Virus record (IMG/VR): IMGVR_UViG_3300044712_000319
Coordinates: 1 to 23,580 of that record
DNA: 23,580 nt
Reading direction: 5' to 3' (one strand)
Origin: a virus
Made by a program: the position numbers and the translations under genes. Shown here one piece after another: positions 13,076 to 18,797 of this stretch (position 1 is the first letter of the stretch; the number at the start of each line of letters is the position of its first letter). Under the pieces are notes generated by a model. That model had not been told where the DNA came from, did not search any database, and saw only the letters and a program-made list of their open reading frames with translations.

Positions 13076-13333
13076 TTAACTAGCTGTTGTACAAGCTACC
13101 CAAGTTGTCGCACCTGTTGAGTTAATATACATTCGAGTTGCTGATGTTGAACCATCTGTTCGGATATATAGAGAACCTTTAGTTGCTGACAATGTAGGAA
13201 CACCTGAACCAACTGCTACAACAAAGTCTGATGAACCGAGGTGAAATAGTGCTACTCCCCCTGCTCGTACATCAATCTGTCTTCCTGAACCTGCATCTCC
13301 TAGGAACTGTGGATTTAGTGCGTTACCTTGCAT
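13076..13333 (-). CDS. Putative capsid decoration or head-fibre protein, 85 aa
   Basis: This is a compact beta-type protein with Gly, Ala, Thr and Ser throughout and no charged helix. The C-terminal half, VPTLSATKGSLYIRTDGS followed by TRMYINSTGATTWVACTT, is a module often found in phage virion surface and fibre proteins. Its small size and position two genes after the major capsid protein suggest a decoration or head-fibre protein. The start shares one base with the stop of the 58-aa gene (TAATG). The module is recognised by pattern; the location on the capsid is inference. Confidence 0.6.
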   Translation of the reverse strand: MQGNALNPQFLGDAGSGRQIDVRAGGVALFHLGSSDFVVAVGSGVPTLSATKGSLYIRTDGSTSATRMYINSTGATTWVACTTAS

Positions 13334-13509
13334 TATAGTGATTTAAGTTTAGCTTCTAATTCGTCTTTTTTATCTTCGTACTTTTTAGGATTTCTTGTTT
13401 TGTAGATTTCAATTATTTCAAGTAGCTTTCTTTTAGCTTCTGAAATATCTGTCGTACTTACAACTTCTTCCTTAATTTCCTCTGATGTTTTGATTGTTTT
13501 CTTTGCCAT
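13333..13509 (-). CDS. Lysine-rich 58-aa protein after the capsid gene
   Basis: The frame runs from ATG at 13509 (MAKKTIKTSEEI) to TAA at 13333. It is a highly charged helical protein (SEAKRKLLEIIEIYKTRN, YEDKKDELEAKLKSL) with no membrane span. It has one of the few good Shine-Dalgarno sequences in the window, AGGAGA about 10 nt before the ATG, directly after the stem of the post-capsid hairpin, so its translation could depend on how that RNA folds. Short charged proteins directly after the capsid gene are common in phages, but their role is rarely known. A capsid-assembly or head-completion role is possible. Confidence 0.78.
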   Translation of the reverse strand: MAKKTIKTSEEIKEEVVSTTDISEAKRKLLEIIEIYKTRNPKKYEDKKDELEAKLKSL

Positions 13510-13524
13510 GAGTGTATCTTCTCC

Positions 13525-13592
13525 TGTGGGGAGTGAAACAGTAGAGATGCTGGGAAGCGAGTTCTACTGCTTCACCCCACACAAGAGTGGGG
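13525..13592 (-). promoter_or_regulatory. Post-capsid RNA structure with two competing pairings
   Basis: The gap between the capsid stop and the 58-aa gene is nearly all secondary structure. A large hairpin pairs 13563-13575 with 13533-13545 (minus-strand GTGAAGCAGTAGA with TCTACTGTTTCAC, 13 bp with one G-T pair) around a 17-nt loop. A small hairpin, CCCCAC, TCTTGT loop, GTGGGG, covers 13592-13575. GTGGGG of that small hairpin (13575-13580) can alternatively pair with CCCCAC at 13526-13531, extending the large stem through a bulge. The Shine-Dalgarno of the 58-aa gene follows directly. There is no U-run, so a simple terminator is unlikely. Confidence 0.7.
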
Positions 13593-13599
13593 ATTATCT

Positions 13600-14454
13600 T
13601 TACGCTGTAAGAGTGATGTCAATCAAAAGGTCTGACTTTGAAGCCCATGCTTTAGCACCTACAAGAGCGTAAGCTACGATTTCCATACCAGTTTTACCTG
13701 ATACTTGCTTTTCTTCGTAATTAACTCCTCGTGGTGATGCAAAAGTAGCAACTTTCTTGATACCGAATAGTCGGTGTCCTGCGTTAGTGAAAGTCTGAGT
13801 TCCAAAAGTATCATCTGCGAATGTACCTGTTCTAGTTACATAGATGTCTACACCCATGTAAGAGTTCATAAATCCGTTTTTGTATACTGAGTCTGCAAAT
13901 GAGAATCCTGAAGCCGCCTGAGCTACAATAAGTCCAGGGATTTCAGTGTTTTCAATTACGAGGAACATTCCGTTAGAAATTTCTGAATAACCTGAAACTT
14001 TAGAAATCAAGTTACCAAAGATAGTTGTTACGTTTGTTGATGTTCCAAATCCTCCTGCTGGAGTTGAGTATGAGCCAGTAGCTCCCTCTGTAATTACGTT
14101 GAGAGCGTAAGCATCTGCTTTATCTTTAACTGCAAACATAATCTGCTCCATTCGTGAAGCAAATAGGTCAAAGTTAGATAGGATATTTTCAAATCCGTAT
14201 ACGTGTTCTCCTGCCTTAATTTCATCTGCAACTGTCAATGTGTCATCAGTAGTTGTATATGTGTTAACTGAGTATGTTCCGTTGATAGCTGTTACTGAAG
14301 CTGTTGGTGATGAGCCGTATGGATTGTCAATGTACTTGTCTTCTGTTCTATCTACGTTAAAGACAGCTTCAGAAATCAATGCTCGTCTGAGAAGTATAGC
14401 CAGAGTGTTCTGGAAATATTTTCGACGATATGTATATGTTGATATTGTGTTCAT
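13600..14454 (-). CDS. Major capsid protein (HK97-fold type)
   Basis: This 284-aa protein sits directly after the scaffold-like gene and two genes after the portal, the standard place for the coat protein. It has an N-terminal helix (RRKYFQNTLAILLRRALIS), a long central helix typical of the coat-protein spine (FENILSNFDLFASRMEQIMFAVKDKADAYALNVI, split around residues 88-121), and a beta/loop-rich remainder with VDIYVTRTG and a GHRLFGIKKVATFASPRG segment. It is short for a coat protein but within the range of small podovirus-like capsids. The ATG follows a 6-bp hairpin and lacks a Shine-Dalgarno. Position, composition and neighbours make the call firm, although no single short motif proves it. 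Confidence 0.82.
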   Translation of the reverse strand: MNTISTYTYRRKYFQNTLAILLRRALISEAVFNVDRTEDKYIDNPYGSSPTASVTAINGTYSVNTYTTTDDTLTVADEIKAGEHVYGFENILSNFDLFASRMEQIMFAVKDKADAYALNVITEGATGSYSTPAGGFGTSTNVTTIFGNLISKVSGYSEISNGMFLVIENTEIPGLIVAQAASGFSFADSVYKNGFMNSYMGVDIYVTRTGTFADDTFGTQTFTNAGHRLFGIKKVATFASPRGVNYEEKQVSGKTGMEIVAYALVGAKAWASKSDLLIDITLTA

Positions 14455-14456
14455 TA

Positions 14457-14473
14457 GGGTTATTATTTAACCC
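14457..14473 (-). promoter_or_regulatory. Hairpin directly before the capsid start codon
   Basis: On the minus strand GGGTTA, loop AATAA, TAACCC forms a perfect 6-bp stem that ends 2 nt before the capsid ATG. No Shine-Dalgarno is available outside it. The hairpin may affect ribosome access at the most highly expressed gene, or stabilise the message. It is short, so chance is possible. Confidence 0.45.
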
Positions 14474-14483
14474 CAGCATCTTT

Positions 14484-17597: not shown

Positions 17598-18797
17598 CTA
17601 TCTTGTTGAGTTTCTTCCTTGCATATTTCTACGCATAACCATATGTTGATTTACTTTTTGTGTAACTTCACTATCTTTTGGCTTCAAACTAGCTAAAGCA
17701 TATCTGACAGCATCTAGAATGTGGTCATATCCACTTTCAGGTACATTAATAACCTTTCCGTCTTTGTCTGTTTGCCATAAATAGTTTCGATATTCTTTAA
17801 TCAAATTGACTGAGCGTTTAGTCATAGACATTTTTTGTGCTTGGACATACTGAATACCTTGATTTATAGAACCTGCACCCTTTTCTGCTGGTAGTATATT
17901 TATTCCATAAAGCCTTATTTCATCTATTGATTTAGGTTCTGCACTATCTGCAATAACAAGACTACCTGTAACATTTTTCAATGTTTCGGCTATTTCTTTA
18001 TTGCTCATTCCATTCTTGTAGCAAATTTCATCAAGAATATACCCACCATTATAATAATATACAGCAACGATAGCGGTAGGGTCATTTGTATATCCAAAGT
18101 CTAATCCATATCTCTCTAACCTAGCTTCATGTGGTATATCGTCAATAATTTGCCAGTCTTTGTAAATTTTTCCCTCTACTTCTCCAAGTTGTCCAAGTCC
18201 ATATACCTGCCACCAGCCTTTTCTGTTTTGTCTTGATTCAATAGCTTTCACAATTTCTTGTGATAGTCCCTCGTTATCTTTGTATGTCAAAATAATATGG
18301 TCTACATCATCTCTTTTGTGTAATACGTCTGTATAGAACCAAAATTCATTAGTTGGATTCCAGTCTAGGAACATAAATTCTTTAGTTCTAACTTCTAGTT
18401 GGTCAAAAGCATCAAGACTCATGTTGTTACATTCGTTCATAAAACATCTATCTCGTCTTGCACCTCTGAGTTTATCTGATTGGTCGGCACTAAAGAATTC
18501 TATTTGAGAGCCTGTTTCAAACTCGTATATGTTATCTGTGGCACTCCACCTTTCTTCTTTCCAATAGCCATGCTCTTTCATTATGTTTATAAAATCTCGT
18601 CTTGCACCTCGTTTTAAGTGAGGTGTAGATTCTGCAATAACTGATGTAAGTGTCTTATGTGTGTCGGACTGAGCTTTATCTATCAAGAATAAAAGAATAC
18701 TAATAGTCTTTGAACTAGAAGTACCTCCTTGTATAGCTCGTATCTTTTTATTGAGCTTCGCTATCTTCTTTAGAGCTGTCGTTACTTGATAAGCCAT
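17598..18797 (-). CDS. terL: Terminase large subunit
   Basis: This is the ATP-driven DNA packaging motor with its headful or site-specific nuclease. In the 399-aa protein the Walker A motif is GGTSSSKT (residues 24-31), the Walker B is CFMNEC with catalytic Glu122, and LDWNPTNEFWFY (144-155) is the coupling region seen in this family. The C-terminal RNase H-fold nuclease shows Asp233 in GLDFGYTNDPTA, Asp284 in VIADSAEPKSIDEIR, and Asp358/Asp362 in YDHILDAVRYAL. All expected motifs are present, so the enzyme is probably functional. The start overlaps the 3' end of the small-subunit gene by 50 nt in another frame. Domain content resembles the Terminase_3-type large subunits. Confidence 0.95.
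   Translation of the reverse strand: MAYQVTTALKKIAKLNKKIRAIQGGTSSSKTISILLFLIDKAQSDTHKTLTSVIAESTPHLKRGARRDFINIMKEHGYWKEERWSATDNIYEFETGSQIEFFSADQSDKLRGARRDRCFMNECNNMSLDAFDQLEVRTKEFMFLDWNPTNEFWFYTDVLHKRDDVDHIILTYKDNEGLSQEIVKAIESRQNRKGWWQVYGLGQLGEVEGKIYKDWQIIDDIPHEARLERYGLDFGYTNDPTAIVAVYYYNGGYILDEICYKNGMSNKEIAETLKNVTGSLVIADSAEPKSIDEIRLYGINILPAEKGAGSINQGIQYVQAQKMSMTKRSVNLIKEYRNYLWQTDKDGKVINVPESGYDHILDAVRYALASLKPKDSEVTQKVNQHMVMRRNMQGRNSTR

Follow-up and report, generated by a model that had tools for sequence, protein, structure and literature searches.

Compensatory changes connect the capsid-gene leader with a hairpin loop behind the same gene in an uncultured family of tailed phages

A large and widespread family of uncultured tailed phages carries a structured RNA element behind the gene for its major capsid protein. 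The apical loop of this element (L) is complementary to a site (s) in the leader of the same gene and, judged by covariation, the helix s·L is real. The element also contains two alternative helices, a·a' and a'·a'', which, by the variation seen across relatives, are kept by compensatory changes and hence under selection. We propose that s·L forms a 5'-3' RNA tether around the capsid gene and controls capsid translation; this reading is held with slightly better than even confidence, the pairings being drawn from sequence comparison and the effect on translation being what we infer from them.

The window, i.e. the whole stretch of 23,580 nt that was analyzed, contains the following two genes on either side of the element:

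13600 to 14454, minus strand: gene for the major capsid protein, 284 aa (open reading frame and matches to PHROG major head protein families)
13333 to 13509, minus strand: lysine-rich 58-aa gene located 3' of the element (open reading frame)

The capsid protein of the window matches the major head protein family phrog_27239 (E=1e-5), and 10 of 12 of its relatives match phrog_267 (best E=4e-12); the AlphaFold model of the capsid protein (pLDDT 30) was too poor to use. A comparison with 50,697 phage records revealed no relative of the capsid protein, and no cultured relatives of the capsid or portal proteins were found among isolated phages. The terminase encoded at 17598-18797 of the window is 43% identical to the terminase of Flavobacterium phages, while the capsid and portal have no isolated-phage match. 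Scans of IMG/VR and GTDB yielded well over a hundred loci with capsid relatives (46-98% identity). As regards the host, capsid matches were limited to one Parcubacteria genome, one Bacteroidales genome and one 0.7-Mb MAG; two phyla, covered with about 380 and 395 genomes, yielded no further ones. From these loci 95 distinct post-capsid gaps were extracted, of which 60 non-redundant ones had a parsed element, and 30 further non-redundant genomes were held out for a blind test of s·L; some of the start codons were assigned automatically. The identity of the gene that follows the element varies by genome and includes lysine-rich small proteins, decoration-like proteins and others. In one chimeric-looking contig (L005:5790-5800), the capsid reading frame abruptly turns into unrelated sequence.

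On the minus strand, the 90-nt gap between the two genes of the window is organized in the order a (CCCCAC), b (UCUUGU), a' (GUGGGG), stem, loop, stem, a'' (CCCCAC) and b' (AGGAGA), with the following features:

13587 to 13592, minus strand: strand a (CCCCAC), which forms the upstream side of the small hairpin and lies 7 nt past the capsid stop (sequence; permutation z=-13.5, 60 genomes)
13581 to 13586, minus strand: b, loop of the small hairpin and, in the other form, outer stem of the long hairpin (fold)
13575 to 13580, minus strand: a', GUGGGG, strand common to both hairpins (sequence and permutation)
13521 to 13587, minus strand: long hairpin 3' of the capsid gene, predicted to have 27 bp (fold z=-7.0; kept in nearly all relatives)
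13545 to 13555, minus strand: L, apical-loop segment UCCCAGCAUCU, complementary to s (loop-site complementarity)
13526 to 13531, minus strand: a'', CCCCAC, downstream strand displacing a from a' (sequence, fold)
13520 to 13525, minus strand: b', AGGAGA, base of the long hairpin (pairs with b in the predicted fold)

The initial annotation of this gap had placed all of its minus-strand motifs correctly (CCCCAC at 13592-13587, GTGGGG at 13580-13575 and the second CCCCAC at 13531-13526), and its 13-bp stem (13563-13575 with 13533-13545) was recovered as part of a helix that actually extends to 13587/13521. As it had also proposed, a' at 13575-13580 pairs either with a or with a'', never with both. 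The predicted fold of the gap RNA has an energy of -42 kcal/mol (z=-5.05), a value reached by none of 200 shuffled sequences; the z-score of the 85-nt core is -7.0, and the small hairpin alone reaches -11.6 kcal/mol (z=-3.1), all energies here and below being model values that ignore loop-loop geometry. The long form is favored over a·a' by 11.5 kcal/mol in the window and by 3-20 kcal/mol in most genomes, which excludes an equilibrium switch. Two forms of similar free energy were not found in the window or in most relatives; at equilibrium one structure is overwhelmingly favored, which the initial annotation had named among the outcomes that would refute its reading. The small hairpin must therefore act while the RNA is being transcribed, while ribosomes are on it or once it has been cleaved. 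During synthesis of the RNA, a·a' is the earlier helix to form and persists until a'' and b' emerge. With a·a' as a fallback, the calculated cost of opening the long-hairpin base drops from 23.1 to 11.5 kcal/mol in the window and, as a median over genomes, from 24.4 to 12.8 kcal/mol. Neither the window nor 12 relatives contained an Rfam 15 match above the gathering score. A stimulator of frameshifting or readthrough was rejected as a candidate, the reading frames staying free of stop codons over 100 nt in no more than 7, 12 and 8 of the 60 genomes.

A long hairpin is located behind the capsid stop in nearly every gap, with stems of 20-36 bp in the relatives; the sequence of the stem varies freely and its structure is constant. 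The small hairpin is present in most genomes, typically 5-7 nt past the stop codon, with an a·a' stem of mostly 6-12 bp and a short, often U-rich loop. In the 60 non-redundant genomes the upstream strand pairs with the arm of its own hairpin at -8.8 kcal/mol, compared with -4.2 kcal/mol for permuted partners (z=-13.5), and the types of base pairs vary at each position in both a·a' and a'·a''. Covariation in relatives, the test put forward together with the first description of the gap, thus holds for both pairings, and because of these compensatory changes the structure in the window is not a chance one. Single mismatches flanked by Watson-Crick pairs, counted in an alignment blind to wobble, comprise 163 G·U and 12 A·C; this excess indicates that the functional molecule is the capsid-sense RNA and rules out a palindrome acting at the DNA level. 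A convincing small hairpin is missing in about 9 of 90 genomes, all of which keep the long hairpin, and the small hairpin is therefore regarded as accessory. In two genomes (loci L048 and L063) no element was found behind the capsid gene; their capsid leader still has a GGGG...CCCC hairpin. A second, different hairpin follows the next gene or genes in a number of genomes, several of these hairpins having CCUUA...UAUAGGG at the base, at the following loci:

L004:6281-6331
L013:6411-6465
L016:5245-5299
L022:7278-7329
L059:6415-6465
L074:6127-6181

The main partner of the element is the 5' leader of the capsid gene itself; the initial annotation had noted the local pairings correctly and had missed this one. 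The leader of the window contains the following features:

14471 to 14481, minus strand: site s, AGAUGCUGGGG, complementary to L (11 contiguous pairs with 13555-13545)
14468 to 14475, minus strand: c, 5' arm of a local leader hairpin, overlapping s (leader fold)
14455 to 14462, minus strand: c', 3' arm of the leader hairpin, directly before the AUG at 14454-14452 (leader fold)

In the window, the leader sequence AGAUGCUGGGG pairs with the loop sequence UCCCAGCAUCU, and the duplex of L with the capsid 5' region has a predicted energy of -19.6 kcal/mol. The site s precedes the capsid start by about 25-50 nt and is 900 nt away from L. All but a few of the inspected genomes have an s·L complementarity, which covers 6-13 contiguous nt (mean 9.5); there is no recognizable match at loci L032, L048 and L063. 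Exact 8-mers of the reverse complement of the genome's own loop were observed 62 times, compared with 8.9 expected from swapped loops, and cluster just upstream of the capsid start codon. The comparison of own with swapped loops gave z=13.9, with 60 of 62 non-redundant genomes passing the threshold, and loop complementarity was at background in the control regions (capsid ORF, scaffold gene and downstream). In the blind repeat on the 30 new genomes, for which the rule was applied without any assumption about a loop motif, the score was 22.1 for own and 16.3 for swapped loops (z=10.9, a result not reached in any of 10,000 permutations), and entirely different s/L pairs emerged, for example GGACAAUGGU/ACCAUUGUCC and GGUAACCGACUGG/CCAGUCGGUUGCC. 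At loop positions 2-4, base pairing is retained in 59 of 59 genomes, with several types of pair represented. On the capsid tree, the changes of loop and site largely coincide: for nine positions (-1 to 7), 86 changes in the loop and 85 in the site reduce to 116 joint changes. Roughly, the conserved apical loop reads UUY-CCACCG-AUU, from which the window loop (CUUCCCAGCAU) differs. Lineages without CCACCG, such as that of the window, keep the complementarity, so no cause of the conserved CCACCG besides pairing is needed; a protein or the host rRNA as the cause is superfluous for a loop that covaries with the leader. Pairing of strand a with the capsid leader was also considered and was rejected in the absence of a significant excess (z=1.3).

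Folding statistics support the formation of the leader hairpin c·c': the predicted fold of the window leader has an energy of -9.2 kcal/mol (z=-3.2), and the leader hairpins of the relatives have a mean z of -2.5. In most genomes this hairpin ends 0-8 nt before the AUG and its 5' arm is the 3' end of s, with an overlap of at least 2 nt between s and the local hairpin in 45 of 48 cases; in a few capsid leaders the local hairpin is weak or absent. Since s shares nucleotides with c, the helix s·L and the leader hairpin partly exclude each other. The 424 ORF leaders of these genomes are A-rich, with about 8% G just upstream of the starts, and are depleted of motifs resembling the Shine-Dalgarno (SD) sequence; judged by this composition, initiation in these phages is probably SD-independent. 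Sequestration of an SD sequence was rejected on account of the same depletion. The motif AGGAGA had been read initially as the SD sequence of the 58-aa gene, which is unlikely given the depletion of G-rich motifs upstream of starts; with leaders so poor in G, the base of the long hairpin is its most plausible role.

In three genomes (loci L033, L113 and L138) the element is located 340-650 nt further downstream. The loops of the displaced elements in L113 (+650) and L138 (+595) still match the capsid leader over 11-13 nt, and the match is weaker in L033. The elements at L033:6174-6229 and L113:6510-6560 lie at least one gene downstream of the capsid gene, which shows that genes have been inserted or shuffled around the element. 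At L138:5862-6620, a broken HNH-type homing endonuclease gene follows the capsid gene; a copy of the element precedes the broken gene, its loop matching the last ten bases before the start of that gene, and the canonical element, with its capsid-leader match, lies 595 nt downstream. Sites for the genome's own loop were also found before other genes in a minority of genomes. Before the portal gene they occur in 17 of 57 genomes (3.0 expected; 5 of 25 in the repeat, 0.9 expected), mostly at -15 to -28 relative to the start, and before a 182-aa gene in 14 of 60 (2.75 expected; 3 of 12 in the repeat, 0.8 expected). The scaffold gene is at background (1 of 60 with 1.0 expected; repeat, 1 of 26 with 1.0 expected), and the terminase gene TerL has 1 of 37 (0 of 15 in the repeat). 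At loci L018, L022 and L067, a second site of the GGUGGA type is present 24-40 nt before the gene after the element, and the same loop could also act on this next gene.

In the proposed tether, the loop L of the completed 3' hairpin would capture s and break the leader hairpin, which would free the start region for SD-independent initiation and raise capsid translation on completed messages. The least certain part of this reading is the direction of the effect, and we adopt activation in preference to repression only tentatively. A point against the tether as a whole is the coupling of transcription with translation, as capsid translation could then start before the 3' hairpin exists. The portal sites lie right before the start codon, where pairing with the loop should block initiation, and one loop could in this way favor capsid over portal and raise the capsid/portal ratio. 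The small hairpin would approximately halve the cost of opening the long-hairpin base, allowing a ribosome to load on the next gene with the display of L intact; alternatively, it might serve as a protective 3' end after cleavage. The pairing s·L may take place within one message (in cis) or between messages, both being compatible with the sequences. A wider proposal, that the whole family uses an RNA device that loops the capsid message and acts as a regulator in cis or in trans, with capsid up and in some genomes portal down, is possible and on balance doubtful. If true, virion stoichiometry would be set by one RNA loop and a set of leader sites, in phages seemingly without SD initiation.

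The same helix could instead mainly stabilize the capsid message against nucleases and affect translation only indirectly. Long hairpins at the 3' end of a message block exonucleases, and the capsid is the protein required in the largest amount. A bacterial precedent is hbs, for which a review describes a 14-nt 5'-3' UTR pairing that protects against RNase Y (PMC7821165). However, the leader hairpin that overlaps s reaches the start codon in most genomes, and the extra sites lie right before the portal starts; both observations point at initiation, and a mainly protective function appears somewhat unlikely. Repression of capsid translation, with L bound near the start and blocking ribosomes until late infection, would resemble the icaR message, in which pairing of the 3' UTR with the SD region blocks initiation (PMC3868564). 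The portal-type sites and the endonuclease site at L138 are indeed located where pairing would block initiation, but the capsid site s is mostly found 25-50 nt upstream of the AUG, i.e. upstream of the usual initiation footprint, and its pairing with L breaks a hairpin that itself looks inhibitory, so we consider repression unlikely.

Two further explanations put the weight on processing or on action in trans. RNase III might cut the long duplex, whereupon a·a' would form and protect the capsid message at its new 3' end. The element has the duplex of about 20 bp or more that an RNase III processing site requires, its stems being 20-36 bp long, the stable a·a' hairpin (mostly 6-12 bp) lies close behind the stop codon, and its formation needs an event such as cleavage because the long form wins at equilibrium; processing nevertheless leaves the covarying loop L and site s unexplained, and it is quite unlikely. 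A trans-acting small RNA derived from the 3' UTR, with L as its seed and the leaders of the capsid, portal and 182-aa genes as its targets, would account for the matches of one loop, in a minority of genomes, to sites before several structural genes. None of the other sites is nearly as constant as that of the capsid gene, though, and in the same genomes the displaced elements are still downstream of the capsid gene, as a tether in cis needs; the probability of this explanation is accordingly low.

It is very unlikely that, as had been suggested at the outset, the downstream gene is controlled at its SD sequence by the choice between a·a' and the long hairpin. The distance from the base strand b' to the next start codon is indeed no more than about 40 nt, and a·a' does halve the cost of freeing b'; yet the downstream genes differ by genome, SD motifs are depleted in the leaders, and the displaced elements follow the capsid leader, still matched at L113 and L138, and not a given downstream gene. 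Of the switch first proposed there remains a regulatory RNA with two exclusive and conserved pairings, without the control through the SD sequence of the gene behind it. An intrinsic terminator can practically be dismissed: a GC-rich intergenic hairpin is present and the small hairpin is terminator-like, but the window has no U-run, as had been noted before, none is visible in the gaps of relatives, and genes in the same direction follow downstream.

The preferred reading, a tether that controls capsid translation, would extend what is known of end-to-end pairing in bacterial messages, which is limited to a handful of single cases, some of them reported as not conserved between species. Here the putative tether belongs to the constant features of a phage lineage that is widespread and uncultured; covariation in about 90 non-redundant genomes and a blind test support it, and exclusive hairpins accompany it at both ends of the message. 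It offers a concrete, mutable system for how phages may set capsid amounts without protein regulators, and the comparison of a 3' hairpin loop with its own leader provides a recipe for the detection of tethers elsewhere. Such an element for the capsid genes of DNA phages was not found in the open-access literature.

Several known systems share parts of this architecture. The coat operator of phage MS2 is a hairpin between the coat gene and the next gene that is bound by the coat protein; the phage element described here is likewise a hairpin with a conserved loop in the same place, whereas the constancy of its loop is explained by base pairing with s. Attenuators of the trp type choose among three strands to form exclusive hairpins beside the position of a ribosome. 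The phage element too chooses among three strands with a ribosome position adjoining, but it has no terminator or leader peptide and is located behind a gene, not before it. The 3' cap-independent translation elements of plant viruses form 5'-3' kissing loops in eukaryotic RNA viruses and recruit eukaryotic factors; there, as here, the message is closed by pairing between its 5' leader and the loop of a 3' hairpin, although the sequences and hosts are unrelated to those of the phage element.

The closest bacterial parallels are messages in which the leader is complementary to the 3' UTR, a property that the capsid message shares. In Staphylococcus aureus, a UCCCC motif in the 3' UTR of icaR pairs with the SD sequence, blocks initiation and gives a substrate for RNase III (PMC3868564). 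A review lists 5'-3' UTR pairing also for RNAIII and hbs and reports that the icaR pairing is not conserved in S. epidermidis and that the B. subtilis hbs 3' UTR is not conserved in close relatives (PMC7821165). As in icaR, a motif in the 3' UTR of the phage message pairs with its own leader, C-rich against G-rich, and would act on initiation. Unlike in icaR, the phage partner is a loop carried on a hairpin with two states, the leader lacks an SD sequence (pairing of the 3' part with an SD sequence was not found, s being located upstream of the start region and the leaders being poor in G), and covariation shows that a deep lineage of phages has conserved the pairing. With hbs the phage message shares a long intramolecular pairing of leader and 3' UTR; a hairpin-loop switch or a leader hairpin like that of the phages is not described for hbs in the accessible part of the review (PMC7821165). 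The phage system differs from the known cases of 5'-3' UTR pairing in that its loop is borne on a hairpin, its hairpins have two states and its conservation reaches deep.
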